From positions 21,152,974-21,216,973 of the forward strand of contig NC_135259.1 in assembly GCF_964204865.1 (NCBI RefSeq): 64,000 bases of DNA, written 5' to 3'. Below, piece by piece: positions 15,290-64,000 of this stretch (positions are counted from its first letter, which is position 1; the number at the start of each line of letters is the position of its first letter). The DNA comes from Styela clava. Taxonomy: Eukaryota > Chordata > Ascidiacea > Stolidobranchia > Styelidae. The notes below the pieces were generated by a model, which worked only from the letters and a program-made list of their open reading frames with translations, had not been told where the DNA came from and ran no database searches. The translations under genes and the position numbers were made by a program.

Positions 15290-15293
15290 TCGA

Positions 15294-15500
15294 TTGCGAC
15301 TTGGATTTGTGACACGCTTTTGTCATGCTGTTGGCACACAAATCCTTTTTAAACAATAAATGCAAGAATAATAGATTTTGTTGGAGACTTGGATTTGTGA
15401 CGCTCCTCTGTCATACTGTTGGCACACAAAACCTTTTCGAACAATAAATGACGTAAATACCAGATTTTGTTATATATTCATATTGCTTGCTGCGATCGAA
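15294..15500 (+). pseudogene. Left edge of array: decayed tRNA-Leu remnants only
   Basis: Two diverged Leu-relic 3' parts (from about 15294 and about 15388), each with GACTTGGATTTGTGAC and GGCACACAAA, lie next to each other without a Met body between them. Confidence 0.7.
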
Positions 15501-15572
15501 GCCTCGATTGCGCAGTAGGCTGCACATGAGTCTCATTATCTCTAAGTCGTGAGTTCAATCCTCGCTCGGGGC
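15501..15572 (+). pseudogene. Diverged tRNA-Met relic
   Basis: First Met copy. CAT anticodon present but G9T, broken D stem and several loop changes. Confidence 0.75.
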
Positions 15573-15848
15573 AGATCAAATATTTGAGACTTGATGCGAC
15601 AGTCCAGAATCACATATCTGTCGTGATATAACTCGGGTCGGATCATGTATCTTAGACCTGGTGCCAAGTGCCAAATAACATACACACATGTCTAATGTAA
15701 TCTAAGCCACTGCTTTCAGGTCGCAGTCTCCGATTGAGACTTGTATTCGTAATCCGCTTCTGTAATAATGGTGTCACACAAGTCATTTCAGAACAATTAA
15801 TGACGTTAATGATGGATTTTCTTATATATATTGCTCGTCGTGATAGGA

Positions 15849-15920
15849 TCCTCGATGGCGCAGTAGGCAGCGCGAGAGTCTCATAAACTAAAGGTCGTGA
15901 GTTCGATCCTCACTCGGGGC
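15849..15920 (+). pseudogene. Diverged tRNA-Met relic
   Basis: G1T breaks the terminal pair; the 3' side of the anticodon stem is altered (AAACTA). Confidence 0.75.
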
Positions 15921-16099
15921 AGGTCAAATATTTTAAACCTGATGCGGCATTTCAAAAACACATATCCATCGTGATATCTAGCTTTTGGAGTTGATTCCAA
16001 TCCCGGTCTTTCAAAATAATGAATTACTTCACTCGTTTTCACTATAAAAGATTTCACTGAGGTTTCTATATTTTGTTTGCTACAATGCATGTATTACAA

Positions 16100-16181
16100 G
16101 ACAAAATAGCCTAGCGGTTTGAGGCTCTGCGTCAAAGTCGCAGTCTCCAGTGAAGGCGTGGGTTCGAATCCCACTTCTGTC
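16100..16181 (+). pseudogene. Diverged full-length tRNA-Leu relic
   Basis: Colinear with the 82-nt Leu body and with an intact B box GGTTCGAATCC. The anticodon loop reads TCAAAGT in place of TTCAGGT, losing the invariant T33, and the A box is altered. Confidence 0.7.
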
Positions 16182-16413
16182 TTATTTGTTGCACACAAAT
16201 CCTTTAAACTCAGGTCGGATCAAAAACTTAGACCTGATGCGAAAGAACATAAACACATGTCTATTGTAATCTAAGCTGCTGCGTTCAGGTCGCAGTCTCC
16301 GATTGAGACTTGGGTTTGTAACCCGCTCCTGTCAGGATGGTGGCACACGAGTCATTTCAAAACAATTAATGACGTAATAATTGATTGTGTTATTTAAATT
16401 GGTCGTGATAGGA

Positions 16414-16461
16414 GTCTCGATGGCGCAGTAAGCAGTGCGTAAGTCTCATAATCTCAAGGTT
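16414..16461 (+). pseudogene. 3'-truncated tRNA-Met relic
   Basis: Ends after the anticodon arm (AAGGT) and joins directly to unit spacer; the T arm is missing. Confidence 0.75.
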
Positions 16462-16650
16462 TTTAGACTTTATGTGACAGAACAGAACACATGTCTAATG
16501 TAATCTAAGGCGCTACATTTATGTCGCAGTCTTCCATTGAGACTTGGATTTGTTACACGCTTCTGTCATACCGTTGGCACACAAATACTTTTCAAACAAT
16601 AAATGCCAAAATAATAGATTTTGTTCTACATAATTCTCGATATGATGGCA

Positions 16651-16722
16651 GCCTCGATGGCGAGGTAGGCAGCGAGTGAGTCTCATAATCTTAAGGTCGT
16701 GAGTTCGATCCTCACTCGAGGC
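16651..16722 (+). pseudogene. tRNA-Met variant, D arm damaged
   Basis: C13A, A14G, C25A and C42T. Loss of A14 and of D-stem pairs makes function unlikely. Confidence 0.6.
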
Positions 16723-16919
16723 ACATAAATATTTTGGGCTTGATGCGACAGAAATAACATATGTCTAATGTAATCTAAGGTGCTACGTTTATGTCGCAGT
16801 CTTCCATGAGACTTGGATTTGTGACTCGTTTCTGTCATACTGTTGGCACACAAATCCTTTTCGAACAATAAATGCGAAAATAATAGATTTTGTTATATAT
16901 ATTGCTTGCTTCGATGGGA

Positions 16920-16991
16920 GCCTTGATGACGCAGTAGGCAGCTCGTGAGTCTCATAATCTCACGGTCGTGAGTTCAATCTTCACTCTAGAG
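16920..16991 (+). pseudogene. tRNA-Met relic, acceptor stem lost
   Basis: C5T, G10A and G24T; the 3' acceptor strand is replaced by TCTAGAG-like sequence. Confidence 0.75.
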
Positions 16992-17196
16992 TCTAGACAC
17001 ATAACATATTTTATCTTCATGCGATAGAACAGAACACATGCCTAATGTAATCTAAGGCGCTACTTTTATGTCGCAGTCCTCCATGAGACTTGGATTTGTG
17101 ACGCGCTTCTGTCATACTGTTGGCACACAAAACCTTTTCAAACAATAAATGCCAAAATAATAGATTTTGTTCTACATAATTCTCGATATGATGGCA

Positions 17197-17268
17197 GCCT
17201 CGATGGCGCTGTAGGCAGTGCGTGAGTCTCATAATCTCAAGGTCGTGAGTTCGATCCTCACTCGAGGC
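17197..17268 (+). tRNA. tRNA-Met(CAT) variant
   Basis: A14T and C23T; the rest is consensus. Loss of A14 weakens the A box and the tRNA core. Confidence 0.5.
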
Positions 17269-17466
17269 ACATAAATATTTTAGACTTGATGCGACAGAAA
17301 GAGCACATGTCTAATTTAATCTAAGGCGCTACGTTCATGTCGCAGTCTTCCATTGAGACTTGAATTTGTGACACGCTTCTGTCATATTGATGGCACACAA
17401 ATCCTTTTCGAACAATAAATGCGAAAATAATAGATTTTTTTATATATATTGCTCGCTTTGATGGGA

Positions 17467-17538
17467 GCCTCGATGGCGCAGTAGGCAGCTCGTGAGTCTC
17501 ATAATCTCACGGTCGTGAGTTCAATCCTCACTCGAGGC
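17467..17538 (+). tRNA. tRNA-Met(CAT) variant
   Basis: G24T leaves a D-stem mismatch; A44C and G57A are tolerable. Confidence 0.55.
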
Positions 17539-17737
17539 ATATAATTATTTTAGACTTGATGCGACAGAACAGAACACATGTCTTATGTAATCTAAGGCGC
17601 TACGTTTATGTCGCAGTCTTCTAATGAGACTTGGATTTGTGAAACGCTTCTGTCATACTGTTGGCACACAAATACTTTTCGAACAATGAATGACGAAACA
17701 AGTGTAATTTTTATATATATTGCTCGCTTTGAAGGGA

Positions 17738-17809
17738 GCCTCGATGGCGCAGTAGGCAGCGCGTGAGTCTCATAGTCTCAAGGTCGTGAGTTCGATCCTC
17801 ACTCGAGGC
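17738..17809 (+). tRNA. tRNA-Met(CAT)
   Basis: Single change A38G in the anticodon loop; long spacer. Confidence 0.75.
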
Positions 17810-18007
17810 ATATAAATATTTTAGACTTGATGCGACAGAAAGAACACGTGTCTAATGTAATCTAAGTCGCTGCGTCCATGTCGCAGTCTTCTAGTGAGAC
17901 TTGGATTTGTGACACGCTTCTGTCATACTGTTGGCACACAAATACTTTTCAAACAATAAATGCAAAAATAGTAGATTTTGTTGAACATATTTGCCGATGT
18001 GTTGGGG

Positions 18008-18071
18008 GCTTCTATGGCGCAGTAGGCAGCGTGTGAGTCTCAAGGTCGTGAGTCCAATACTCACTTGGGGA
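18008..18071 (+). pseudogene. tRNA-Met relic with 8-nt anticodon-loop deletion
   Basis: First of the recurrent deleted class: the stretch between two CTCA repeats, containing the CAT anticodon, is gone, and the acceptor strands no longer pair (GCTTCTA against TTGGGGA). Confidence 0.9.
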
Positions 18072-18217
18072 ACATTAAATACTTTAGACCTGATGCGACA
18101 GTCCAGAAAGACATATCTACCGTGATATCTAGCTTTTGGAGTTGATTCCAATTTCGGTTTCCTAAAACACTGAATTACTTCACTCGTTTTCACTTTATAA
18201 GATTTCAATAGGGTTCC

Positions 18218-18227
18218 TATATTTTAT
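18218..18227 (+). promoter_or_regulatory. TATA-like run upstream of tRNA-Leu
   Basis: TATATTTTAT at -33 to -24 of the tRNA-Leu at 18251. It is part of an upstream flank (TTCACTCGTTTTCACTTTAT, then TTGCTACCCTGTG) found before intact Leu genes and missing from the Leu relics. A role as upstream pol III element is inferred. Confidence 0.45.
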
Positions 18228-18250
18228 TTGCTACCCTGTGTGCATAGAAA

Positions 18251-18332
18251 GGCAGAATGGCCGAGCGGTCTAAGGCGCTGCGTTCAGGTCGCAGTCTCCG
18301 ATGGAGGCGTGGGTTCGAATCCCACTTCTGTC
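18251..18332 (+). tRNA. tRNA-Leu(CAG)
   Basis: An 82-nt body with A box TGGCCGAGCGG, anticodon loop TTCAGGT (CAG, reads CUG), long variable arm and B box GGTTCGAATCC. Acceptor GGCAGAA pairs with TTCTGTC with one G:T. It closely resembles vertebrate tRNA-Leu(CAG). A six-T run follows. Confidence 0.93.
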
Positions 18333-18335
18333 ATA

Positions 18336-18341
18336 TTTTTT
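18336..18341 (+). terminator. Pol III terminator of tRNA-Leu
   Basis: TTTTTT starting 4 nt after the Leu body; present after every full-length Leu copy. Confidence 0.8.
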
Positions 18342-18420
18342 GCACACAAATTCTTAAACTCGGGTCGGATCGTATAACTCAGACCTGATGCGAAAGAACA
18401 TAAACACATGTCTATTGTAA

Positions 18421-18484
18421 TCTAATCTGCTGCGTTCAGGTCGCAGTGTCTGATTGAGACTTGGTTTCGTAACCCGCTCTTGTC
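18421..18484 (+). pseudogene. tRNA-Leu relic, class with intact anticodon loop
   Basis: Colinear with Leu body nt 19-82. It keeps CTGCGTTCAGGTCGCAG but has lost the B box (TTTCGTAACCC) and everything 5' of nt 19. The same relic follows the full-length Leu genes at about +170. Confidence 0.8.
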
Positions 18485-18568
18485 ATGATGCTGGCACACA
18501 AGTCATTTCAGAACAATCAATGACGTTATTCATTGATTTTGTTATATATATGGCTTTTTGTGATAGAA

Positions 18569-18640
18569 GCCTGGATTGCGCAGTAGGCAGTGCGTGAGTC
18601 TCATAATCTCAAGGTCGTGAGTTCGATCCTCACTCGAGGC
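18569..18640 (+). tRNA. tRNA-Met(CAT), GCCTGGATT class
   Basis: C5G (mismatch with G68), G9T in the A box, C23T. Recurrent class found after full-length Leu genes; probably weak or inactive. Confidence 0.45.
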
Positions 18641-18838
18641 ACATAAATATTTTAGACTTGATGCGACAGAAAGAACACATGTCTAATGTAATCTAAGGCG
18701 CTACGTTTATTTCGCAGTCTTCCAATGAGACTTGGATTTGTGACACGCTTCTGTCATACTGTTGGCACGCAAATCCTTTCTGAACAATAAATGACGAACC
18801 AATAAAATTTGTTATATATATTGCTCGCTTTGATGGGA

Positions 18839-18910
18839 GCCTCGATGGCGCAGTAGGCAGCGCGTGAGTCTCATAATCTCAAGGTCGTGAGTTCGATCCT
18901 CACTCGAGGC
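18839..18910 (+). tRNA. tRNA-Met(CAT)
   Basis: Consensus body, long spacer. Confidence 0.9.
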
Positions 18911-19083
18911 ACATATATATTTTAGACTTTATGCGACAGAAAGAACACATGTCTAATGTAATCTAAGACGCTACGTTCATGTCGCATTCTTCGATTGAGA
19001 CTTGGATTTGTGACACGCATCTGTCATACCGTTGGCACACAAATTCTTTTTGAACAATAAATGACGAAACAAATAGAATTTGT

Positions 19084-19092
19084 TATATATAT
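19084..19092 (+). promoter_or_regulatory. TATA-like run upstream of tRNA-Met
   Basis: TATATATAT at -26 to -18 of the copy at 19110. It is conserved in long-spacer units (sometimes TATAAATAT or GTATATATAT) and absent from short-spacer units. Function is inferred. Confidence 0.45.
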
Positions 19093-19109
19093 TGCTCGCT
19101 TTGTTGGGA

Positions 19110-19181
19110 GCCTCGATGGCGCAGTAGGCAGCGCGTGAGTCTCATAATCTCAAGGTCGTGAGTTCGATCCTCACTCGAGGC
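19110..19181 (+). tRNA. tRNA-Met(CAT), reference unit
   Basis: Used as the consensus: acceptor GCCTCGA/TCGAGGC fully paired, D stem GCGC/GCGC, anticodon loop CTCATAA with the T31:T39 mismatch also seen in vertebrate elongator tRNA-Met, T stem GTGAG/CTCAC, discriminator A. Confidence 0.95.
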
Positions 19182-19190
19182 ACATAAATA

Positions 19191-19194
19191 TTTT
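19191..19194 (+). terminator. Pol III terminator of tRNA-Met
   Basis: TTTT 10-13 nt after the body, preceded by ACATAAATA; kept in nearly every unit. Confidence 0.7.
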
Positions 19195-19232
19195 AGACTT
19201 CATGCGACAGAAAGAACACATGTCTAATGTAA

Positions 19233-19296
19233 TATAAGACGCTACGTTCATGTCGCAGTCTTCCATTGAGACTTGGATTTGTGACACGCATCTGTC
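19233..19296 (+). pseudogene. tRNA-Leu relic, common class (representative)
   Basis: Colinear over 64 nt with Leu body nt 19-82 (TAAGACGCTACG to CTGTC). Box A is missing and the B box is ruined (GGATTTGTGAC). The same relic recurs at +123 to +186 of almost every Met copy, in two sub-forms (TTCATGTCGCAG and TTTATTTCGCAG). Confidence 0.85.
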
Positions 19297-19380
19297 ATAC
19301 CGTTGGCACACAAATTCTTTTTGAACGATAAATGACGAAACAAATAGAATTTGTTATATATATTGCTCGCTTTGATGGGA

Positions 19381-19452
19381 GCCTCGATGGCGCAGTAGGC
19401 AGCGCGTGAGTCTCATAATCTCAAGGTCGTGAGTTCGATCCTCACTCGAGGC
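19381..19452 (+). tRNA. tRNA-Met(CAT)
   Basis: Consensus body, long spacer. Confidence 0.9.
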
Positions 19453-19651
19453 ACATAAATATTTTAGACTTTATGCGACAGAAAGAACACATGTCTAATG
19501 TAATCTAAGACGCTACGTTCATGTCGCATTCTTCGATTGAGACTTGGATTTGTGACACGCATCTGTCATACCGTTGGCACACAAATTCTTTTTGAACAAT
19601 AAATGACGAAACAAATAGAATTTGTTATATATATTGCTCGCTTTGTTGGGA

Positions 19652-19723
19652 GCCTCGATGGCGCAGTAGGCAGCGCGTGAGTCTCATAATCTCAAGGTCG
19701 TGAGTTCGATCCTCACTCGAGGC
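19652..19723 (+). tRNA. tRNA-Met(CAT)
   Basis: Consensus body, long spacer; duplicated at 27045 and 34292. Confidence 0.9.
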
Positions 19724-19921
19724 ACATAAATATTTTAGACTTCATGCGACAGAAATAACACATGTCTAATGTAATATAAGACGCTACGTTCATGTCGCAG
19801 TCTTCCATTGAGACTTGGATTTGTGACACGCATCTGTCATACCGTTGGCACACAAATTCTTTTTGAACAATAAATGACGAACCAATAGAATTTGTTATAT
19901 ATATTGCTCGCTTTGATGGAA

Positions 19922-19993
19922 GCCTCGATGGCGCAGTAGGCAGCGCGTGAGTCTCATAATCTCAAGGTCGTGAATTCGATCCTCACTCGAGGC
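19922..19993 (+). tRNA. tRNA-Met(CAT) variant
   Basis: G53A breaks the conserved 53:61 pair and touches the B box; same change at 27315, 29770 and 34562. Confidence 0.45.
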
Positions 19994-20191
19994 ACATAAA
20001 TATTTTAGACTTGATGCGACAGAAAGAACACATGTCTAATGTAATCTAAGGCGCTACGTTTATTTCGCAGTCTTCCAATGAGACTTGGATTTGTGACACG
20101 CTTCTGTCATACTGTTGGCACGCAAATCCTTTTTGAACAATAAATGACGAACCAATAGAATTTGTTATATATATTGCTCGCTTTGATGGGA

Positions 20192-20263
20192 GCCTCGATG
20201 ACGCAGTAGGCAGCGCGTGAGTCTCATAATCTCAAGGTCGTGAGTTCGGTCCTCACTCGAGGC
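20192..20263 (+). pseudogene. tRNA-Met with B-box A58G
   Basis: G10A and A58G (TTCGGTC). A58 is nearly invariant in box B and the T loop. Duplicated at 34832. Confidence 0.6.
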
Positions 20264-20460
20264 ACATAAATATTTTAGACTTCATGCGACAGAAAGAACA
20301 CATGTCTAATGTAATATAAGACGCTACGTTCATGTCGCAGTCTTCCATTGAGACTTGGATTTGTGACACGCATCTGTCATACCGTTGGCACACAAATCCT
20401 TTTTCAACAATAAATGACGAAACAAATAGAATTTATTATATATTGCTCGCTTTGATGGGA

Positions 20461-20532
20461 GCCTCGATGGCGCAGTAGGCAGCGCGTGAGTCTCATAATC
20501 TCAAGGTCGTGAGTTCGATCCTCACTCGAGGC
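20461..20532 (+). tRNA. tRNA-Met(CAT)
   Basis: Consensus body; upstream run shortened to TATATATT. Confidence 0.9.
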
Positions 20533-20729
20533 ACATAAATATTTTAGACTTGATGCGACAGAAAGAACACATGTCTAATGTAATATAAGACGCTACGTTC
20601 ATGTCGCAGTCTTCCATTGAGACTTGGATTTGTGACACGCATCTGTCATACCGTTGGCACACAAATTCTTTTTGAACAATAAATGACGAAACAAATAGAA
20701 TTTATTATATATTGCTCGCTTTGATGGGA

Positions 20730-20801
20730 GCCTCGATGGCGCAGTAGGCAGCGCGTGAGTCTCATAATCTCAAGGTCGTGAGTTCGATCCTCACTCGAGG
20801 C
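20730..20801 (+). tRNA. tRNA-Met(CAT)
   Basis: Consensus body; upstream run shortened to TATATATT. Confidence 0.9.
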
Positions 20802-21000
20802 ACATAAATATTTTAGACTTGATGCGACAGAAAGAACACATGTCTAATGTAATCTAAGACGCTACGTTCATGTCGCATTCTTCCATTGAGACTTGGATTT
20901 GTGACACGCATCTGTCATACCGTTGGCACACAAATTCTTTTTGAACAATAAATGACGAAACAAATAGAATTTGTTATAAATATTGCTCGCTTTGATGGGA

Positions 21001-21072
21001 GCCTCGATGGCGCAGTAGGCAGCGCGTGAGTCTCATAATCTCAAGGTCGTGAGTTCGATCCTCACTCGAGGC
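21001..21072 (+). tRNA. tRNA-Met(CAT)
   Basis: Consensus body; upstream TATAAATAT. Confidence 0.9.
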
Positions 21073-21270
21073 ACATAACTATTTTAGACTTGATGCGACA
21101 GAAAGAACAAATGTCTAATGTAATCTAAGGCGCTACGTTTATTTCGCAATCTTCCATTGAGACTTGAATTTGTGACACGCTTCTGTCATACTGATGGCAC
21201 ACAAATCTTTTTCGAACAATAAATGCGAAAATAATAGATTTTTTTATATATATTGCTCGATTTGATGGGA

Positions 21271-21342
21271 GCCTCGATGACGCAGTAGGCAGCTCGTGAG
21301 TCTCATAATCTCAAGGTCGTGAGTTCGATCCTCACTCGAGGC
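21271..21342 (+). tRNA. tRNA-Met(CAT) variant
   Basis: G10A and G24T damage the D stem and A box. Confidence 0.45.
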
Positions 21343-21507
21343 ACATAAATATTTTAGACTTCATGCGACAGAAAGAACACATGTCTAATGTAATATAAGA
21401 CGCTACGTTCATGTCGCAGTCTTCCATTGAGACTTGGATTTGTGACACGCATCTGTCATACCGTTGGCACACAAATTCTTTTTGAACAATAAATGACGAA
21501 ACAAATA

Positions 21508-21579
21508 GCCTCGATGGCGCAGTAGGCAGCGCGTGAGTCTCATAATCTCAAGGTCGTGAGTTCGATCCTCACTCGAGGC
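21508..21579 (+). tRNA. tRNA-Met(CAT)
   Basis: Consensus body, short spacer: the 33-34 bp holding the TATA-like run are deleted. Confidence 0.88.
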
Positions 21580-21744
21580 ACATAAATATTTTAGACTTCA
21601 TGCGACAGAAAGAACACATGTCTAATGTAATATAAGACGCTACGTTCATGTCGCAGTCTTCCATTGAGACTTGGATTTGTGACACGCATCTGTCATACCG
21701 TTGGCACACAAATTCTTTTTGAACAATAAATGACGAAACAAATA

Positions 21745-21816
21745 GCCTCGATGGCGCAGTAGGCAGCGCGTGAGTCTCATAATCTCAAGGTCGTGAGTTC
21801 GATCCTCACTCGAGGC
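21745..21816 (+). tRNA. tRNA-Met(CAT)
   Basis: Consensus body, short spacer. Confidence 0.88.
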
Positions 21817-22015
21817 ACATAAATATTTTAGACTTCATGCGACAGAAAGAACACATGTCTAATGTAATATAAGACGCTACGTTCATGTCGCAGTCTTCCA
21901 TTGAGACTTGGATTTGTGACACGCATCTGTCATACCGTTGGCACACAAATTCTTTTTGAACAATAAATGACGAAACAAATTGAATTTGTTATATATATTG
22001 CTCGCTTTGATGGGA

Positions 22016-22087
22016 GCCTCGATGGCGCAGTAGGCAGCGCGTGAGTCTCATAATCTCAAGGTCGTGAGTTCTATCCTCACTCGAGGC
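22016..22087 (+). tRNA. tRNA-Met(CAT) variant
   Basis: G57T in the T loop/B box (TTCTATC). Confidence 0.5.
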
Positions 22088-22252
22088 ACATAAATATTTT
22101 AGACTTCATGCGACAGAAAGAACACATGTCTAATGTAATATAAGACGCTACGTTCATGTCGCAGTCTTCCATTGAGACTTGGATTTGTGACACGCATCTG
22201 TCATACCGTTGGCACACAAATTCTTTTTGAACAATAAATGACGAAACAAATA

Positions 22253-22324
22253 GCCTCGATGGCGCAGTAGGCAGCGCGTGAGTCTCATAATCTCAAGGTC
22301 GTGAGTTCGATCCTCACTCGAGGC
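22253..22324 (+). tRNA. tRNA-Met(CAT)
   Basis: Consensus body, short spacer. Confidence 0.88.
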
Positions 22325-22523
22325 ACATAAATATTTTAGACTTCATGCGACAGAAAGAACTCATGTCTAATGTAATATAAGACGCTACGTTCATGTCGCA
22401 GTCTTCCATTGAGACTTGGATTTGTGACACGCATCTGTCATACCGTTGGCACACAAATTCTTTTTGAACAATAAATGACGAAACAAATTGAATTTGTTAT
22501 ATATATTGCTCGCTTTGATGGGA

Positions 22524-22595
22524 GCCTCGATGGCGCAGTAGGCAGCGCGTGAGTCTCATAATCTCAAGGTCGTGAGTTCGATCCTCACTCGAGGC
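22524..22595 (+). tRNA. tRNA-Met(CAT)
   Basis: Consensus body, long spacer. Confidence 0.9.
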
Positions 22596-22793
22596 ACATA
22601 AATATTTTAGACTTGATGCGACAGAAAGAACACATGTCTAATGTAATCTTAGGCGCTACGTTTATTTCGCAGTCTTCCAATGAGACTTGGATTTGTGACA
22701 CGCTTCTGTCATACTGTTGGCACGCAAATCCTTTTCGAACAATAAATGACGAACCAATAGAGTTTGTTATATATATTGCTCGCTTCGATGGGA

Positions 22794-22865
22794 GCCTCGA
22801 TGGCGCAGTAGGCAGCGCGTGAGTCTCATAATCTCAAGGTCGTGAGTTCGATCCTCACTCGAGGC
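22794..22865 (+). tRNA. tRNA-Met(CAT)
   Basis: Consensus body, long spacer; higher-order copies at 27585 and 30040. Confidence 0.9.
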
Positions 22866-23064
22866 ACATAAATATTTTAGACTTCATGCGACAGAAAGAA
22901 CACATGTCTAATGTAATATAAGACGCTACGTTCATGTCGCATTCTTCCATTGAGACTTGGATTTGTGACACGCATCTGTCATACCGTTGGCACACAAATT
23001 TTTTTTGAACAATAAATGACGAAACAAATAGAATTCGGTATATATATTGCTCGCTTTGATGGGA

Positions 23065-23136
23065 GCCTCGATGGCGCAGTAAGCAGCGCGTGAGTCTCAT
23101 AATCTCAAGGTCGTGAGTTCTATCCTCACTCGAGGC
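23065..23136 (+). pseudogene. tRNA-Met with D-loop and T-loop changes
   Basis: G18A and G57T together remove the 18:55 / 19:56 type D-T loop contact context. Copies at 27856, 30311 and 46873. Confidence 0.5.
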
Positions 23137-23335
23137 ACATAAATATTTTAGACTTCATGCGACAGAAAGAACACATGTCTAATGTAATATAAGACGCTAC
23201 GTTCATGTCGCAGTCTTCCATTGACACTTGGATTTGTGACACGCATCTGTCATACCGTTGGCACACAAATTCTTTTTGAACAATAAATGACGAAACAAAT
23301 AGAATTTGTTATAAATATTGCTCGCTTTGATGGGA

Positions 23336-23407
23336 GCCTCGATGGCGCAGTAGGCAGCGCGTGAGTCTCATAATCTCAAGGTCGTGAGTTCGATCCTCAC
23401 TCGAGGC
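23336..23407 (+). tRNA. tRNA-Met(CAT)
   Basis: Consensus body; upstream TATAAATAT. Confidence 0.9.
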
Positions 23408-23605
23408 ACATAACTATTTTAGACTTGATGCGACAGAAAGAACAAATGTCTAATGTAATCTAAGGCGCTACGTTTATTTCGCAATCTTCCATTGAGACTT
23501 GAATTTGTGACACGCTTCTGTCATACTGATGGCACACAAATCTTTTTCGAACAATAAATGCGAAAATAATAGATTTTTTTATATATATTGCTCGATTTGA
23601 TGGGA

Positions 23606-23677
23606 GCCTCGATGACGCAGTAGGCAGCTCGTGAGTCTCATAATCTCACGGTCGTGAGTTCAATCCTCACTCTAGAC
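23606..23677 (+). pseudogene. tRNA-Met relic, TCTAGAC acceptor class
   Basis: G10A, G24T, A44C, G57A; acceptor strand TCTAGAC leaves mismatches at 2:71 and 5:68. Confidence 0.7.
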
Positions 23678-23877
23678 ACATAACATATTTTATCTTGATG
23701 CGACAGAACAGAACACATGTCTAATGTAATCTAAGGCGCTACGTTTATGTCGCAGTCTTCCTTGAGACTTGGATTTGTGACATGCTTCTGTCATACTGTT
23801 AGCACACAAAACCTTTTCGAACAATGAATGACGAAACAAGTGTAATTTTTATATATATATTGCTCGCTCTGAAGGGA

Positions 23878-52000: not shown

Positions 52001-52030
52001 ACATAAATATTTTAGACTTGATGCGACAGA

Positions 52031-54230: not shown

Positions 54231-54260
54231 ACATAAATATTTTAGACTTGATGCGACAGA

Positions 54261-55378: not shown

Positions 55379-55576
55379 ACATAAATATTTTAGACTTAAT
55401 GCGACAGAAAGAACACATGTCTAATGTAATCTAAGGCGCTACGTTTATTTCGCAGTCTTCTAATGAGACTTGGATTTGTGACACGCTTCTGTCATACTGT
55501 TGGCACGCAAATCCTTTTTGAACAATAAATGACGAACCAATAGCATTTGTTATATATATTGCTCGCTTTGATGGGA

Positions 55577-55648
55577 GCCTCGATGGCGCAGTAGGCAGCG
55601 CGTGAGTCTCATAATCTCAAGGTCGTGAGTTCGATCCTCACTCGAAGC
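55577..55648 (+). tRNA. tRNA-Met(CAT) variant
   Basis: G70A. Confidence 0.6.
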
Positions 55649-55847
55649 ACATAAATATTTCCGACTTCATGCGACAGAAAGAACATATGTCTAATGTAAT
55701 ATAAGACGCTACGTTCATGTCGCAGTCTTCCATTGAGACTTGGATTTGTGACACGCATCTGTCATACCGTTGGCACACAAATTCTTTTTGAACAATAAAT
55801 GACGAAACAAATAGAATTTGTTGTATATATTGCTCGCTTTGATGGGA

Positions 55848-55919
55848 GCCTCGATGGCGCAGTAGGCAGCGCGTGAGTCTCATAATCTCAAGGTCGTGAG
55901 TTCGATCCGCACTCGAGGC
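55848..55919 (+). tRNA. tRNA-Met(CAT) variant
   Basis: T62G. Confidence 0.55.
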
Positions 55920-56117
55920 ACATAAATATTTTAGACTTGATGCGACAGAAAGAACACATGTCTAATGTAATCTAAGTCGCTGCGTCCATGTCGCAGTCTT
56001 CTAGTGAGACTTGGATTTGTGACACGCTTTTGTCATACTGTTGGCACACAAATACTTTTCAAACAATAAATGCAAAAATAGTAGATTTTGTTGAACATAT
56101 TTTCCGATGTGATGGGG

Positions 56118-56181
56118 GCCTCTATGGCGCAGTAGGCAGCGTGTGAGTCTCAAGGTCGTGAGTTCAATACTCACTTGGGGA
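56118..56181 (+). pseudogene. tRNA-Met relic, anticodon-loop deletion class
   Basis: 8-nt deletion between CTCA repeats. Confidence 0.9.
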
Positions 56182-56360
56182 ACATTAAATACTTTAGACC
56201 TGATGCAACAGTTCAGAAAGACATATCTACCGTGATATCTAGCTTTTGGAGTTGATTCCAATTTCGGTTTCCTAAAACACTGAATTACTTCACTCGTTTT
56301 CACTTTATAAGATTTCAATAGGGTTCCTATATTTTATTTGCTACCCTGTCCGCATAGAAA

Positions 56361-56442
56361 GGCAGAATGGCCGAGCGGTCTAAGGCGCTGCGTTCAGGTC
56401 GCAGTCTCCGATGGAGGCGTGGGTTCGAATCCCACTTCTGTC
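56361..56442 (+). tRNA. tRNA-Leu(CAG)
   Basis: GGCAGAA form; full body and terminator. Confidence 0.93.
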
Positions 56443-56675
56443 ATATTTTTTGCACACAAATCCTCAAACTCGGGTCATATCGTATAACTTAGACCTGGTG
56501 CGAAAGAACATAAACACGTCTATTGTAATCTAAGCTGCTGCGTTCAGGTCGCAGTGTCTGATTGAGACTTGGTTTCGTAACCCGCTCTTGTAATAATGCT
56601 GGCACACAAGTCATTTCATAACAATCAATGACGTTAATCATTGCTTTGTGATATATATGGCTCTTCGTGATAGAA

Positions 56676-56747
56676 GCCTGGATTGCGCAGTAGGCAGTGC
56701 GTGAGTCTCATAATCTCAAGGTCGTGAGTTCGATCCTCACTCGAGGC
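56676..56747 (+). tRNA. tRNA-Met(CAT), GCCTGGATT class
   Basis: C5G, G9T, C23T. Confidence 0.45.
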
Positions 56748-56945
56748 ACATAACTATTTTAGACTTGATGCGACAGAAAGAACACATGTCTAATGTAATC
56801 TAAGGCGCTACGTTTATTTCGCAATCTTCCATTGAGACTTGAATTTGTGACACGCTTCTGTCATACTGATGGCACACAAATCTTTTTCGAACAATAAATG
56901 CGAAAATAATAGATTTTTTTATATATATTGCTCGATTTGATGGGA

Positions 56946-57017
56946 GCCTCGATGACGCAGTAGGCAGCTCGTGAGTCTCATAATCTCACGGTCGTGAGTT
57001 CAATCCTCACTCTTGAC
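56946..57017 (+). pseudogene. tRNA-Met relic, TCTAGAC-type acceptor class
   Basis: As 23606 but acceptor strand TCTTGAC, one mismatch more. Confidence 0.75.
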
Positions 57018-57217
57018 ACATAACATATTTTATCTTGATGCGACAGAACAGAAAACATGTCTAATGTAATCTAAGGCGCTACGTTTATGTCGCAGTCTTC
57101 CATGAGACTTGGATTTGTGACACGCTTCTGTCATACTGTTAGCACACAAAACCTTTTCGAACAATGAATGACGAAACAAGTGTAATTTTTATATATATAT
57201 TGCTCGCTCTGAAGGGA

Positions 57218-57288
57218 GCCTCGATGGCGCAGTAGGCAGTGCGTAGTCTCATAATCTCAAGGTCGTGAGTTCGATCCTCACTCGAGGC
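57218..57288 (+). pseudogene. tRNA-Met with 1-nt deletion in anticodon stem
   Basis: 71-nt body: one G missing (GCGTAGTC for GCGTGAGTC class) and C23T. Partners at 23878, 28669 and 47686 are intact. Confidence 0.7.
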
Positions 57289-57486
57289 ATATAATTATTT
57301 TAGACTTGATGCGACAGAAAGAACACATGTCTAATGTAATCTAAGGTGCTGCGTCCATGTCGCAGTCTTCTAGTGAGACTTGGATTTGTGATACGCTTCT
57401 GTCATACTGTTGGCACACAAATATTTTTCAAACATTAAATGCAAAAATAGTAGATTTTGTTGAACATATTTCCCGATGTGATGGGG

Positions 57487-57550
57487 GCCTCTATGGCGCA
57501 GTAGGCAGCGTGTGAGTCTCAAGGTCGTGAGTTTAATACTCACTTGGGGA
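57487..57550 (+). pseudogene. tRNA-Met relic, anticodon-loop deletion class
   Basis: 8-nt deletion; T loop further changed (TTTAATA). Confidence 0.9.
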
Positions 57551-57729
57551 ACATTAAATACTTTAGACCTGATGCGACAGTCCAGAAAGACATATCTACC
57601 GTGATATCTAGCTTTTGGAGTTGATTCCAATTTCGGTTTCCTAAAACACTGAATTACTTCACTCGTTTTCACTTTATGAGATTTCAATAGGGTTCCTATA
57701 TTTTATTTGCTACCCTGTGTGCATAGAAA

Positions 57730-57811
57730 GGCAGGATGGCCGAGCGGTCTAAGGCGCTGCGTTCAGGTCGCAGTCTCCGATGGAGGCGTGGGTTCGAATC
57801 CCACTTCTGTC
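57730..57811 (+). tRNA. tRNA-Leu(CAG)
   Basis: GGCAGGA form; full body and terminator. Confidence 0.93.
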
Positions 57812-58044
57812 ATATTTTTTGCACACAAATCCTCAAACTCGGGTCATATCGTATAACTTAGACCTGGTGCGAAAGAACATAAACACGTCTATTGTAATCT
57901 AAGCTGCTGCGTTCAGGTCGCAGTGTCTGATTGAGACTTGGTTTCGTAACCCGCTCTTGTAATAATGCTAGCACACAAGCCATTTCATAACAATCAATGA
58001 CGTTAATCATTGCTTTGTAATATATATGGCTCTTCGTGATAGAA

Positions 58045-58103
58045 GCCTGGATTGCGCAGTAGGCAGTGCGTGACTCTCATAATCTCAAGGTCGTCAGTTC
58101 GAT
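58045..58103 (+). pseudogene. 3'-truncated tRNA-Met fused to tRNA-Leu relic
   Basis: Same junction as 37452. Confidence 0.85.
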
Positions 58104-58249
58104 CTAAGGCGCTACGTTTATTTCGCAGTCTTCCAATGAGACTTGGATTTGTGACACGCTTCTGTCATACCGTTGGCACGCAAATCCTTTTTGAACAATA
58201 AATGACGAACCAATAGAATTTGTTATATATATTGCTCGCTTTGATGGGA

Positions 58250-58321
58250 GCCTCGATGGCGCAGTAGGCAGCGCGTGAGTCTCATATTCTCAAGGTCGTG
58301 AGTTCGATCCTCACTCGAGGC
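58250..58321 (+). tRNA. tRNA-Met(CAT)
   Basis: A38T in the anticodon loop; otherwise consensus. Confidence 0.7.
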
Positions 58322-58521
58322 ACATAAATATTTTAGACTTCATGCGACAGAAAGAGAACATATGTCTAATGTAATATAAGACGCTACGTTTATTTCGCAG
58401 TCTTCTAATGAGACTTGGATTTGTGACACGCTTCTGTCATACTGTTGGCACGCAAATCCTTTTTGAACAATAAATGACGAACCAATAGAATTTGTTATAT
58501 ATATTGCTCGCTTTGATGGGA

Positions 58522-58593
58522 GCCTCGATGGCGCAGTAGGCAGCGCGTGAGTCTCATAATCTCAAGGTCGTGAGTTCGATCCCCACTCGAAGC
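58522..58593 (+). tRNA. tRNA-Met(CAT) variant
   Basis: T62C and G70A. Confidence 0.45.
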
Positions 58594-58792
58594 ACATAAA
58601 CATTTTCGACTTCATGCGACAGAAAGAACATATGTCTAATGTAAGATAAGACGCTACGTTCATGTCGCAGTCTTCCATTGAGACTTGGATTTTTGACACG
58701 CATCTGTCATACCGTTGGCACACAAATTCTTTTTGAACAATAAATGACGAAACAAATAGAATTTGTTGTATATATTGCTCGCTTTGATGGGA

Positions 58793-58864
58793 GCCTCTAT
58801 GGCGCAGTAGGCAGCGCGTGAGTCTCATAATCTCAAGGTCGTGAGTTCGATCCGCACTCGAGGC
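58793..58864 (+). tRNA. tRNA-Met(CAT) variant
   Basis: G6T and T62G. Confidence 0.45.
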
Positions 58865-59062
58865 ACATAAATATTTTAGACTTGATGCGACAGAAAGAAC
58901 ACATGTCTAATGTAATCTAAGTCGCTGCGTCCATGTCGCAGTCTTCTAGTGAGACTTGGATTTGTGACACGCTTTTGTCATACTGTTGGCACACAAATCC
59001 TTTTCAAACAATAAATGCAAAAATAGTAGATTTTGTTGAACATATTTCCCGATGTGATGGGG

Positions 59063-59126
59063 GCCTCTATGGCGCAGTAGGCAGCGTGTGAGTCTCAAGG
59101 TCGTGAGTTCAATACTCACTTGGGGA
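59063..59126 (+). pseudogene. tRNA-Met relic, anticodon-loop deletion class
   Basis: 8-nt deletion between CTCA repeats. Confidence 0.9.
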
Positions 59127-59305
59127 ACATTAAATACTTTAGACCTGATGCAACAGTTCAGAAAGACATATCTACCGTGATATCTAGCTTTTGGAGTTGA
59201 TTCCAATTTCGGTTTCCTGAAACACTGAATTACTTCACTCGTTTTCACTTTATAAGATTTCAATAGGGTTCCTATATTTTATTTGCTACCCTGTGCGCAT
59301 AGAAA

Positions 59306-59387
59306 GGCAGAATGGCCGAGCGGTCTAAGGCGCTGCGTTCAGGTCGCAGTCTCCGATGGAGGCGTGGGTTCGAATCCCACTTCTGTC
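59306..59387 (+). tRNA. tRNA-Leu(CAG)
   Basis: GGCAGAA form; full body and terminator. Confidence 0.93.
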
Positions 59388-59621
59388 ATATTTTTTGCAC
59401 ACAAATCCTTAAACTCGGGTCGGATCGTATAACTTAGACCTGATGCGAAAGAACATAAACACGTCCATTGTAATCTAAGCTGCTGCGTTCAGGTCGCAGT
59501 GTCTGATTGAGACTTGGTTTCGTAACCCGCTCTTGTCATGATGCTGGCACACAAGTCATTTCGGAATAATCAATGACGTTATTCATTGATTTTGTTATAT
59601 ATATGGCTCTTCGTGATAGAA

Positions 59622-59693
59622 GCCTGGATTGCGCAGTAGGCAGTGCTTGAGTCTCATAATCTCAAGGTCGTGAGTTCGATCCTCACTCGAGGC
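59622..59693 (+). tRNA. tRNA-Met(CAT), GCCTGGATT class
   Basis: C5G, G9T, C23T and G26T. Confidence 0.4.
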
Positions 59694-59892
59694 ACATAAA
59701 TATTTTAGACTTGATGCGACAGAAAGAACACATGTCTTATGTAATCTAAGGCGCTACGTTTATTTTGCAGTCTTCCAATGAGACTTGGATTTGTGACACG
59801 CTTCTGTCATACTGTTGGCACGCAAATCCTTTTTGAACAATAAATGACGAACCAATAGAATTTTGGTATAAATATTGCTCGCTTTGATGGGA

Positions 59893-59964
59893 GCCTCGAT
59901 GGCGCAGTAGGCAACGCGTGAGTCTCATAATCTCAAGGTCGTGAGTTCGATCCTCACTCGAGGC
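59893..59964 (+). tRNA. tRNA-Met(CAT) variant
   Basis: G22A; 3' flank ATATAATTATTTTA. Confidence 0.7.
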
Positions 59965-60162
59965 ATATAATTATTTTAGACTTGATGCGACAGAAAGAAC
60001 ACATGTCTAATGTAATCTAAGGTGCTGTGTCCATGTCGCAGTCTTCTAGTGAGACTTGGATTTGTGACACGCTTCTGTCATACTGTTGGCACACAAATAC
60101 AATTCAAACAATAAATGCAAAAATAGTAGATTTTGTTGAACATATTTCCCGATGTGATGGGG

Positions 60163-60226
60163 GCCTCTATGGCGCAGTAGGCAGCGTGTGAGTCTCAAGG
60201 TCGTGAGTTCAATACTCACTTGGGGA
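60163..60226 (+). pseudogene. tRNA-Met relic, anticodon-loop deletion class
   Basis: 8-nt deletion between CTCA repeats. Confidence 0.9.
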
Positions 60227-60405
60227 ACATTAAATACTTTAGACCTGATGCGACAGTCCAGAAAGACATATCTACCGTGATATCTAGCTTTTGGAGTCGA
60301 TTCCAATTTCGGTTTCCTAAAACACTGAATTACTTCACTCGTTTTCACTTTATGAGATTTCAATAGGGTTCCTATATTTTATTTGCTACCCTGTGTGCAT
60401 AGAAA

Positions 60406-60487
60406 GGCAGGATGGCCGAGCGGTCTAAGGCGCTGCGTTCAGGTCGCAGTCTCCGATGGAGGCGTGGGTTCGAATCCCACTTCTGTC
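60406..60487 (+). tRNA. tRNA-Leu(CAG)
   Basis: GGCAGGA form; full body and terminator. Confidence 0.93.
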
Positions 60488-60720
60488 ATATTTTTTGCAC
60501 ACAAATCCTCAAACTCGGGTCATATCGTATAATTTAGACCTGGTGCGAAAGAACATAAACACGTCTATTGTAATCTAAGCTGCTGCGTTCAGGTCGCAGT
60601 GTCTGATTGAGACTTGGTTTCGTAACCCGCTCTTGTAATAATGCTAGCACACAAGTCATTTCATAACAATCAATGACGTTAATCATTGCTTTGTAATATA
60701 TATGGCTCTTCGTGATAGAA

Positions 60721-60779
60721 GCCTGGATTGCGCAGTAGGCAGTGCGTGACTCTCATAATCTCAAGGTCGTCAGTTCGAT
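60721..60779 (+). pseudogene. 3'-truncated tRNA-Met fused to tRNA-Leu relic
   Basis: Same junction as 37452. Confidence 0.85.
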
Positions 60780-60925
60780 CTAAGGCGCTACGTTTATTTC
60801 GCAGTCTTCCAATGAGACTTGGATTTGTGACACGCTTCTGTCATACCGTTGTCACGCAAATCCTTTTTGAACAATAAATGACGAACCAATAGAATTTGTT
60901 ATATATATTGCTCGCTTTGATGGGA

Positions 60926-60997
60926 GCCTCGATGACGCAGTAGGCAGCGCGTGAGTCTCATAATCTCAAGGTCGTGAGTTCGATCCTCACTCGAGGC
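60926..60997 (+). tRNA. tRNA-Met(CAT) variant
   Basis: G10A. Confidence 0.6.
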
Positions 60998-61198
60998 ACA
61001 TAAATATTTTAGACTTCATGCGACAGAAAGAGAACATATGTCTAATGTAATATAAGACGCTACGTTCATGTCGCAGTCTTCCATTGAGACTTGGAGTTGT
61101 GACACGCATCTGTCATACCGTTGGCACACAAATTCTTTTTGAACAATAAATGACGAAACAAATAGAATTTGTTATATATATTGCTCGCTTTAATGGGA

Positions 61199-61270
61199 GC
61201 CTCGATGGCGCAGTAGGCAGCGCGTGAGTCTCATAATCTCAAGGTCGTGAGTTCGATCCTCACTCGAGGC
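61199..61270 (+). tRNA. tRNA-Met(CAT)
   Basis: Consensus body, long spacer. Confidence 0.9.
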
Positions 61271-61468
61271 ACATAAATATTTTAGACTTGATGCGACAGA
61301 AAGAACACATGTCTAATGTAATCTAAGGCGCCACGTTTATTTCGCAGTCTTCTAATGAGACTTGGATTTGTGACACGCTTCTGTCATACTGTTGGCACGC
61401 AAATCCTTTTTGAACAATAAATGACGAACCAATAGAATTTGTTATATATATTGCTCGCTTTGATGGGA

Positions 61469-61540
61469 GCCTCGATGGCGCAGTAGGCAGCGCGTGAGTC
61501 TCATAATCTCAAGGTCGTGAGTTCGATCCTCACTCGAAGC
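61469..61540 (+). tRNA. tRNA-Met(CAT) variant
   Basis: G70A. Confidence 0.6.
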
Positions 61541-61739
61541 ACATAAATATTTTCGACTTCATGCGACAGAAAGAACATATGTCTAATGTAATATAAGACG
61601 CTACGTTCATGTCGCAGTCTTCCATTGAGACTTGGATTTGTGACATGCATTTGTCATACCGTTGGCACACAAATTCTTTTTGAACAATAAATGACGAAAC
61701 AAATAGAATTTGTTGTATATATTGCTCGCTTTGATGGGA

Positions 61740-61811
61740 GCCTCGATGGCGCAGTAGGTAGCGCGTGAGTCTCATAATCTCGAGGTCGTGAGTTCGATCC
61801 GCACTCGAGGC
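61740..61811 (+). tRNA. tRNA-Met(CAT) variant
   Basis: C20T, A43G and T62G. Confidence 0.5.
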
Positions 61812-62009
61812 ACATAAATATTTTAGACTTGATGCGACAGAAAGAACACATGTCTAATGTAATCTAAGTCGCTGCGTCCATGTCGCAGTCTTCTAGTGAG
61901 ACTTGGATTTGTGACACTCTTCTGTCATACTGTTGGCACACAAATACTTTTCAAACAATAAATGCAAAAATAGTAGATTTTGTTGAACATATTTCCCGAT
62001 GTGATGGGG

Positions 62010-62073
62010 GCCTCTATGGCGCAGTAGGCAGCGTGTGAGTCTCAAGGTCGTGAGTTCAATACTCACTTGGGGA
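62010..62073 (+). pseudogene. tRNA-Met relic, anticodon-loop deletion class
   Basis: 8-nt deletion between CTCA repeats. Confidence 0.9.
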
Positions 62074-62252
62074 ACATTAAATACTTTAGACCTGATGCAA
62101 CAGTTCAGAAAGACATATCTACCGTGATATCTAGCTTTTGGAGTTGATTCCAATTTCGGTTTCCTTAAACACTGAATTACTTCACTCGTTTTCACTTTAT
62201 AAGATTTCAATAGGGTTCCTATATTTTATTTGCTACCCTGTGTGCATAGAAA

Positions 62253-62334
62253 GGCAGAATGGCCGAGCGGTCTAAGGCGCTGCGTTCAGGTCGCAGTCTC
62301 CGATGGAGGCGTGGGTTCGAATCCCACTTCTGTC
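62253..62334 (+). tRNA. tRNA-Leu(CAG)
   Basis: GGCAGAA form; full body and terminator. Confidence 0.93.
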
Positions 62335-62568
62335 ATATTTTTTGCACACAAATCCTTAAACTCGGGTCGGATCGTATAACTTAGACCTGATGCGAAAGAA
62401 CATAAACACGTCTATTGTAATCTAAGCTGCTGCGTTCAGGTCGCAGTGTCTGATTGAGACTTGGTTTCGTAACCCGCTCTTGTCATGATGCTGGCACACA
62501 AGTCATTTCGGAATAATCAATGACGTTATTCATTGATTTTGTTATATATATGGCTCTTCGTGATAGAA

Positions 62569-62640
62569 GCTTGGATTGCGCAGTAGGCAGTGCGTGAGTC
62601 TCATAATCTCAAGGTCGTGAGTTCGATCCTCACTCGAGGC
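62569..62640 (+). tRNA. tRNA-Met(CAT), GCCTGGATT class
   Basis: C3T, C5G, G9T, C23T. Confidence 0.4.
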
Positions 62641-62838
62641 ACATAAATATTTTAGACTTGATGCGACAGAAAGAACACATGTCTTATGTAATCTAAGGCG
62701 TTACGTTTATTTTGCAGTCTTCCAATGAGACTTGGATTTGTGACACGCTTCTGTCATACTGTTGGCACGCAAATCCTTTTTGAACAATAAATGACGAACC
62801 AATAAAATTTGTTATATATATTGCTCGCTTTGATGGGA

Positions 62839-62910
62839 GCCTCGATGGCGCAGTAGGCAACGCGTGAGTCTCATAATCTCAAGGTCGTGAGTTCGATCCT
62901 CACTCGAGGC
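62839..62910 (+). tRNA. tRNA-Met(CAT) variant
   Basis: G22A. Confidence 0.7.
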
Positions 62911-63110
62911 ACATAAATATTTTAGACTTGATGCGACAGAAATGAACACATGTCTAATGTAATCTAAGGCGCTACGTTTATTTCGCAGTCTTCCAATGAG
63001 ACTTGGATTTGTGACACGCTTCTGTCATACTGTTGGCACGAAAATCCTTTTTGAACAATAAATGACGAAACAAATAGAACTTGTTATATATATTGATCGC
63101 TTTGATGGGA

Positions 63111-63182
63111 GCCTCGATGGCGCAGTAGGCAGCGCGTGAGTCTCATAATCTCAAGGTCGTGAGTTCGATCCTCACTCGAGGC
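63111..63182 (+). tRNA. tRNA-Met(CAT)
   Basis: Consensus body, long spacer; last complete consensus copy in the window. Confidence 0.9.
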
Positions 63183-63381
63183 ATATAAATATTTCAGACT
63201 TGATGTGGCAGAACAGGACACATGTCTAATGTAATCTAAGTCGCTGCGTCCATGTCGCAGTCTTCTAGTGAGACTTGGATTTGTGACACGCTTCTGTCAT
63301 ACTGTTGGCACACAAATACTTTTCAAACAATGAATGACGAAATAATAGATTTTGTTGAACATATTTCCCGATGTGATGGGG

Positions 63382-63424
63382 GGCTGCGAATCTCAAGGTC
63401 GTGAGTTCAATCCTCACTTGGGGA
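63382..63424 (+). pseudogene. tRNA-Met relic with enlarged deletion
   Basis: Related to the anticodon-loop deletion class, but the D arm is also gone (GGGGGCTGCGAATCTCAAGG). Confidence 0.7.
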
Positions 63425-63602
63425 ACATTAAATACTTTAGACCTGATGCGACAGTCCAGAAAGACATATCTATCGTGCTATCTAGATTTGGAGTTGATTC
63501 CAATTTCGGTTTCTTAAAACACTGAATTACTTCACTCGTTTTCACTTTATAAGATTTCAATAAGATTCCTATATTTTATTTGCTACCCTGTGTGCATAGC
63601 AG

Positions 63603-63684
63603 TGCAGAATGGCCGAGCGGTCTAAGGCGCCACGTTCATGTCGCAGTCTTCCATTGAGACTTGGATTTGTGACACGCTTCTGTC
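63603..63684 (+). pseudogene. Chimeric tRNA-Leu: intact 5' part, relic 3' part
   Basis: The 5' part has the A box (GCAGAATGGCCGAGCGG) of full-length Leu. From GCGCCACG on it follows the common relic with no B box and no CAG loop (TTCATGT). A crossover between an intact Leu and a relic explains it. Confidence 0.8.
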
Positions 63685-63769
63685 ATACCGTTGGCACATA
63701 AACCCTTTTTGAACAATAAATGACGAAACAAATAGAATTTGTTATATATATATGCTCGCTTTGATGGGA

Positions 63770-63833
63770 GCTTCGATGGCGCAGTAGGCAGCGCGTGAGT
63801 CTCAAGGTCGTGAGTTCAATCCTCACTTGGGGA
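63770..63833 (+). pseudogene. tRNA-Met relic, anticodon-loop deletion class
   Basis: 8-nt deletion; 5' half close to consensus (GCTTCGATGGCGC), 3' half TTGGGGA. Confidence 0.85.
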
Positions 63834-64000
63834 ACATTAAATACTTTAGACCTGATGCGACAGTCCAGAAAGACATATTTAACGTGATATCTAGCTTTTG
63901 GAGTTGATTCCAATTTCGGTTTCCTAAAACACTGAATTACTTCACTCGTTTTCACTTTATAAGATTTCAATAGGGTCCCTATATTTTATTTGCTACCCCG

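Follow-up and report, generated by a model that had tools for sequence, protein, structure and literature searches.

The genome assembly of the ascidian Styela clava (GCF_964204865.1; 376.6 Mb in 379 contigs) carries on contig NC_135259.1, here C13, a tandem array of transfer RNA (tRNA) genes that extends over 97.6 kb on the forward strand only. The stretch analysed, hereafter the window, comprises 64,000 nucleotides (C13:21152974-21216973), and the array runs from window position 15283 past the window end to window-coordinate 112886 (C13:21168256-21265859). The array consists of head-to-tail units, each bearing one or more tRNA genes. Two related unit types are present on the same strand, in many variants and copied in blocks: one contains a tRNA-Met gene and a dead tRNA-Leu, and the other a dead tRNA-Met, a tRNA-Leu gene and a dead tRNA-Leu. 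We put at about three in four the probability that the array is a tandem satellite of tRNA-coding DNA (tDNA) in which the two unit types have been propagated by unequal exchange, many copies are probably transcribed and single copies are dispensable.

Extent and copy number of the array

Mapping of 164 kb with nhmmer gave, for the whole array, 297 tRNA-Met-like bodies, 302 decayed Leu bodies (psiLeu) and 44 tRNA-Leu(CAG)-like bodies, all on the forward strand, with 257 of the Met and 37 of the Leu bodies reaching at least 90 % of full length. The part of the array within the window (15283 to 64000, as delimited by mapping these three kinds of body) contains 165 Met bodies (154 at least 90 % in length) and 19 Leu bodies (17 at least 90 % in length). 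In the window ARAGORN called 152 tRNA genes, all on the forward strand and the first at 15849, of which 131 are Met(CAT), 18 are Leu(CAG) (16 of these being 83 nt long) and 3 are others. Over the whole mapped stretch it called 200 Met(CAT) and 38 Leu(CAG), and it found no tRNA in the 20 kb preceding the window or in a 30-kb stretch farther downstream. The Rfam tRNA model (RF00005) gave 158 matches above the gathering score in the window, the commonest Met body at an E value of 5.9e-12. This major-type 73-nt Met(CAU) body, which we take to be of the elongator type, is present in 92 identical copies in the array, 70 of them within the window. Met bodies are mostly spaced 269 to 273 bp apart, with additional 237-bp and a few 223-bp units, and Tandem Repeats Finder (TRF) rows inside the window part of the array (score at least 50) have periods of 223 to 481 bp only.

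A first-pass annotation of the window, made from the sequence letters, had described a same-strand tRNA-Met/tRNA-Leu array starting at about 15290 and running past the window end, with about 140 Met bodies (some 70 of them identical), 16 full-length Leu bodies and a spacing of about 271 bp, and the mapping agrees with it on each of these points. Its view of the array as one of two isotypes was also right, but it overlooked that the unit is itself a composite of Met and dead Leu.

Two complementary unit types

The Met unit is about 271 bp long with a GC content of about 42 %, and is exemplified by the 270-bp unit at 21001 to 21270 (forward strand), in which a major-type tRNA-Met(CAU) body occupies 21001 to 21073 (65.4 bits against RF00005). 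A relic, a decayed tRNA-Leu(CAG), lies at unit positions 124 to 188 (21124 to 21188 in the example) and is identical to the intact array Leu at 47 of 65 nt (72 %, BLAST E value 1e-7). The B-box pattern that was tested is kept in none of the 302 psiLeu, including the one in the example. Descent of psiLeu from tRNA-Leu is supported by a solitary Leu-like relic at C17:10730102-10730186, because this copy resembles both the array Leu (88 of 102 aligned columns, with the CAG loop and B box intact) and psiLeu with its 3' flank (69 of 87 aligned columns). ARAGORN called no tRNA at this C17 position.

The Leu blocks have the order psiMet (dead Met), Leu, psiLeu and measure 558 to 561 bp in 31 of 44 cases. 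An example on the forward strand at 18008 to 18568 comprises a 65-nt psiMet with the anticodon stretch deleted (18008 to 18072), an intact tRNA-Leu(CAG) followed by T6 (18251 to 18333; 55.5 bits with Rfam) and a psiLeu (18421 to 18485, coordinates transferred by hand from a BLAST alignment of the unit with the Leu region). The same 65-nt form lacking the anticodon stretch is found in 38 of the 44 Met bodies that directly precede a Leu, and the loop TCTCATAATC is kept in 5 of these 44 as against 217 of the 253 remaining Met bodies. Since the Leu-linked Met is mostly dead and the Leu of the Met unit is dead, the unit types complement each other: Met is kept in the one and Leu in the other. In the one Leu block examined in this way, removal of the 295 nt that separate the GACCTGATGCGA direct repeats leaves a sequence that matches the consensus of the Met unit along its whole length (212 of 262 positions identical). 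Recombination between the GACCTGATGCGA repeats appears to be the simplest link between the unit types, in a direction that we infer.

RNA polymerase III signals

Transcription by RNA polymerase III (pol III) is permitted by A and B boxes, a TATA element and T-run terminators. Among the 257 near-full-length Met bodies, T4 occurs within 40 nt downstream in 200 (at +8 in 181), TATATA within 50 bp upstream in 198 (at -26 in 170) and a GTTCGA-type B box in 178. For the 37 near-full-length Leu bodies the corresponding counts are 34 with T6 downstream, 0 with TATATA in the 50 bp upstream and 34 with the B box; the upstream sequence TATATTTTA was seen in four of five Leu examples inspected, those four sharing one sequence. 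Every tested stem pair together with the CAT anticodon is kept in 127 of the 255 Met bodies of 73 nt, the 42 of 297 that are not 73 nt having been excluded from the stem-pair test. Judged by boxes, TATA elements, terminators and scores, most though not all copies are intact enough for pol III. Because the A and B boxes, a TATA element about 26 bp upstream and T4 8 bp downstream are intact, many intact Met copies are probably transcribed, and the product would be ordinary tRNA-Met. Preserved boxes and T-runs in many copies had been noted in the first-pass annotation and are borne out by these counts. By its own terms the annotation would have been refuted if nearly all copies were pseudogenes, which is structurally not the case given the 92 major-type bodies and the 127 with stems and anticodon kept.

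Sequence diversity and homogenization

Diversity was measured on an alignment of 199 Met-psiLeu units of 200 to 310 bp with a Met body of at least 70 nt, of which 148 are distinct. Nucleotide diversity (pi) is lowest in Met, at 0.031, against 0.057 and 0.133 for the spacers and 0.077 for psiLeu; outside the Met body as a whole it is 0.095, and Met ranks 2 of 270 circular windows. Between units with spacer divergence above 0.12 the Met bodies differ by 0.030 to 0.046 and psiLeu by 0.088 to 0.107, and at spacer divergence of 0.001 to 0.03 the two are equal (0.0206 and 0.0208), the lowest bins being biased by this way of binning. No Met variant is present in 20 or more copies, and 42 such variants are spread over 197 sites of the other regions. 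Singleton variants per site in the 148 distinct units number 0.38 in Met and 0.46 to 0.60 in the other regions, and on a tree of whole units the changes per site are 1.30 in Met, 1.46 in psiLeu and 1.72 and 2.20 in the spacers. Fisher tests of rare versus frequent variants gave p = 0.028 for Met against all other regions and p = 0.40 against psiLeu, with p = 0.15 and 0.65 in the remaining two of the four tests. From these sequences, founder lineages seem to have kept Met for a long time, by selection or by conversion, with single copies now drifting.

Several results weigh against parts of this account. In pairs of units with identical spacers, at the low end where binning biases the values, divergence is greater for Met (0.014) than for psiLeu (0.007), and on a tree built from spacers only the changes per site are higher in Met (1.68) than in psiLeu (1.42), with 1.86 and 2.07 in the spacers. 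Met mutation types that break stem pairs show no deficit (64 of 137, against a null mean of 58.9), either overall or within any frequency class, and mutation types in the A and B boxes are not avoided (13 and 13, with 11 expected in each); the frequency-class and box tests also excluded 53 Met bodies with six or more changes. Leu has no clear dip in diversity and ranks 247 of 476 windows: pi is 0.034 in Leu, 0.054 in psiMet and 0.040 in the rest (410 columns, which include psiLeu), over the 33 of 44 blocks that remained after the 11 outside 540 to 580 bp were excluded. Neighbouring units (0.080) do not clearly resemble one another more than units at a distance of 50 do (0.079). The direction of change between the unit types, loss of Leu and not its gain, is likewise one that we infer.

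Because of the stem, box, spacer-tree, identical-spacer and Leu results, the low diversity of Met may reflect conversion and not selection. Purifying selection on single copies, to which the contrast in pi had pointed, was not borne out by the tree counts or by the stem and box tests, and single copies look dispensable, their internal mutations appearing unselected. Units at least 60 apart differ more (0.097), and since adjacent units and units 50 apart are alike and both lie below this value, homogenization is at best regional; local homogenization of neighbouring units was not seen. Exact repeats of up to 2347 bp inside the array reflect block copying.

Insertions, array edge and soundness of the assembly

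A 1755-bp insertion interrupts an array unit at window-coordinate 91241-92995 (C13:21244214-21245968). It has 14-bp inverted ends and is flanked by an 8-bp target duplication, GTCATACT, features shared with hAT elements. Another insert, about 4.7 kb long, lies at approximately 96496-101238 in window coordinates and starts with CAGTGTT; sequence related to it occurs downstream of the array on the opposite strand. The left edge of the array (15283 to 17000, forward strand) is decayed, with a truncated psiLeu, a mutated Met and a Leu-like body that ARAGORN called tRNA-Phe(AAA), as seen in the ARAGORN calls, the nhmmer map and the sequence itself. Expansion of a few units by the assembler, which exact repeats as long as 2347 bp might confuse, is very improbable. 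The number of distinct units (148 of 199 aligned) and the insertions, one of them with its target duplication, speak against an assembly multiple, as do the absence of N bases from the 164 kb of sequence and the uneven placement of major-type Met copies, which peak at 20 to 40 kb (42 of 71) and are scarce beyond 100 kb (4 of 34).

tRNA genes elsewhere in the genome

Dispersed Met copies were found on C5 (73 nt identical, with different flanks, plus a separate 61-base partial match) and on C3 and C8 (each with one base different), and C9 has a Leu-like match of 93 % across 102 query bases. A tRNA search in which 63 of 32363 candidates were scored revealed a second array, at C2:15882721-15941977, with at least 36 tRNAs on the forward strand; two tRNA-Lys(UUU) copies in it lie 316 bp apart at C2:15905590-15905999. 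Their spacer contains a 31-bp tRNA-Lys relic (26 of 31 positions identical), which none of 1000 plain shuffles equalled. Tandem tRNA arrays therefore occur at least twice in the genome. A cluster of at least 4 tRNAs is spread over 37 kb of the reverse strand at C10:6888133-6925763, and the one tRNA of it that was read is Cys(GCA).

A few further observations were made in the same assembly. The 18S gene has at least five matches, four on C2 and one on C14. On C9 a GH6 exon scored 42.4 bits (cut-off 27), and two further frames of this locus, when scanned with Pfam, yielded no recognised synthase domain; the exon is a pointer to a tunicate genome, as GH6 in animals is known from the tunicate cellulose synthase. 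A search for COX1 in which 2 candidates were scored did not find it. In the window, part of an open frame at 3138-3527 briefly resembles collagen, with a Pfam Collagen score of 18.3 bits that falls short of the cut-off (27.2). Small unplaced contigs (C154, C296, C191, C98, C216, C318 and others) carry a 71-position tRNA every 44 to 46 kb. The copy at C154:14590-14690 is Gly(UCC) with CCA encoded, and the best 5 of 503 matches of its 101 bases to a phage collection were 75 to 85 % identical, four of them annotated as tRNA-Gly. These contigs may stem from a circular contaminant, bacterial or phage-like, that was assembled several times over.

Comparison with known tRNA arrays

The published systems are compared here on those portions of the papers that were available. 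Among tunicates, the share of tDNA that lies in clusters is about 40 % for both C. intestinalis and B. schlosseri and 90 % for C. savignyi, mostly in direct tandem orientation, and D. vexillum is reported to have numerous tRNA pseudogenes (PMC5006418). Direct tandem orientation is common to those clusters and to this array, but the available portion describes no array of comparable size, Met/Leu composition or complementary dead partners. The first-pass annotation had regarded such an array as unfamiliar in an animal, a statement that this published clustering softens. Seven tRNA-Arg genes are reported in and near one Ciona gene (PMC6339383). Among vertebrates, clustered tDNA amounts to 65 % in zebrafish and 87 % in stickleback, according to Bermudez-Santana et al., and in zebrafish and Xenopus heterogeneous tDNA pairs occur and almost every pair is parallel (PMC2888827); clustering and parallel pairs are alike, and complementary dead partners are not mentioned in the part available. 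The human variable number tandem repeat (VNTR) at 1q23.3 is likewise a tandem tRNA-bearing chordate repeat, but has a GC-rich 7.3-kb unit in 9 to 43 copies that binds CTCF (PMC4041453), whereas the unit here has 271 bp and about 42 % GC.

The tRNA arrays of Entamoeba, for which concerted evolution has been proposed, resemble this one in that a tandem unit can combine two or more tRNA genes (PMC2652664). They differ in several respects, as far as the accessible text goes. No clear pseudogenes are reported there, in contrast to the 302 psiLeu and the 39 of 44 Leu-linked Met without the anticodon-loop pattern found here, and their spacers are microsatellite-like, unlike the 223 to 481 bp periods of the window part of this array. 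The arrayed share of tRNA genes, which is almost all of them in Entamoeba, may be another difference, dispersed Met copies and a Leu-like match being present here. Placement at chromosome ends is proposed but unproven in Entamoeba, and the first-pass annotation had drawn this parallel; the present array ends 1,234,771 bp (1.23 Mb) from the contig end, and a chromosome-end role was rejected for an array internal to its contig. A literature search by titles and abstract starts, with most subscription journals outside its scope, returned no description of this array among the matches listed. On these partial sources, the array is a large one of the already known tandem tDNA kind, and is unusual among the compared systems for its complementary dead partners.

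Origin and possible roles

In the explanation that we favour, an ancestral composite unit would have borne both a Met and a Leu gene, and the short Met unit would have arisen from it when two short direct repeats recombined. Both unit types would then have spread through unequal crossing-over and conversion, and the target of selection, if any, would be the copies as a pool or the lineages from which new blocks are seeded. The same anatomy would result if the array were a neutral satellite of tRNA origin, silent or barely transcribed, shaped by unequal exchange, with tRNA supplied by dispersed genes; the two explanations differ on expression, and we regard the second as a serious competitor at somewhat less than even odds. 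The undepleted stem-breaking and box mutation types, the dispersed Met on C3, C5 and C8 with the Leu-like match on C9, and the 302 Leu relics retained as ballast are in its favour, whereas Met is conserved over deep divergence while psiLeu and spacer diverge, 92 Met copies are identical, and most copies have a TATA element and a terminator. A selected reservoir, in which numerous tRNA-Met and tRNA-Leu(CAG) genes would be needed for fast protein synthesis, for instance in eggs and embryos, is unlikely, although such a role has reportedly been proposed for the Xenopus tDNA satellite. A reservoir would suit the many intact copies that bear pol III signals, the second tandem array of Lys(UUU) and the cluster with a Cys(GCA) gene; against it, selection on single copies is not visible, and the Met to Leu ratio of about 5:1 (200:38 by ARAGORN) would call for a matching demand. 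The choice between reservoir and neutral satellite for large tRNA arrays is discussed without an answer in the Entamoeba paper, in the portion available (PMC2652664).

It is distinctly unlikely that the units have split an ancestral Met-Leu repeat between them by complementary loss such that each type is kept for its isotype and selection works on the composition of the array instead of on copies. Dense TFIIIC sites serving as a chromatin boundary or a structural element are more doubtful still: GTTCGA-type B boxes at intervals of about 271 bp in 178 of 257 near-full-length Met copies, and tDNA barrier activity in yeasts and mammals (PMC4041453, in part), would suit this role, but the pattern is missing from the other 79. 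That the array is a cluster of tRNA-derived short interspersed elements (SINEs) instead of tRNA genes is scarcely credible. A tRNA body joined to fixed non-tRNA sequence and the Leu-like relic on C17 recall such elements, but the units stand head to tail on a single strand, and among the best 7 of 10 candidates of a genome search, matches exceeding the tRNA body lay only on C13, with the exception of 85 bp on C17, and no dispersed copy of the whole unit was found off C13.

Implications

If complementary loss with each unit type kept for its isotype were true, the partial Lys relic, seen in one unit of the Lys array, would make such a system general for the tRNA genes of this genome. Applied to the present sequence, the comparison of Met with psiLeu points to old constraint or conversion, recent constraint not being visible. 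The Met unit carries its own internal yardstick, a dead tRNA-Leu beside a tRNA-Met, by which the choice between selected reservoir and neutral satellite can be tested at one locus.

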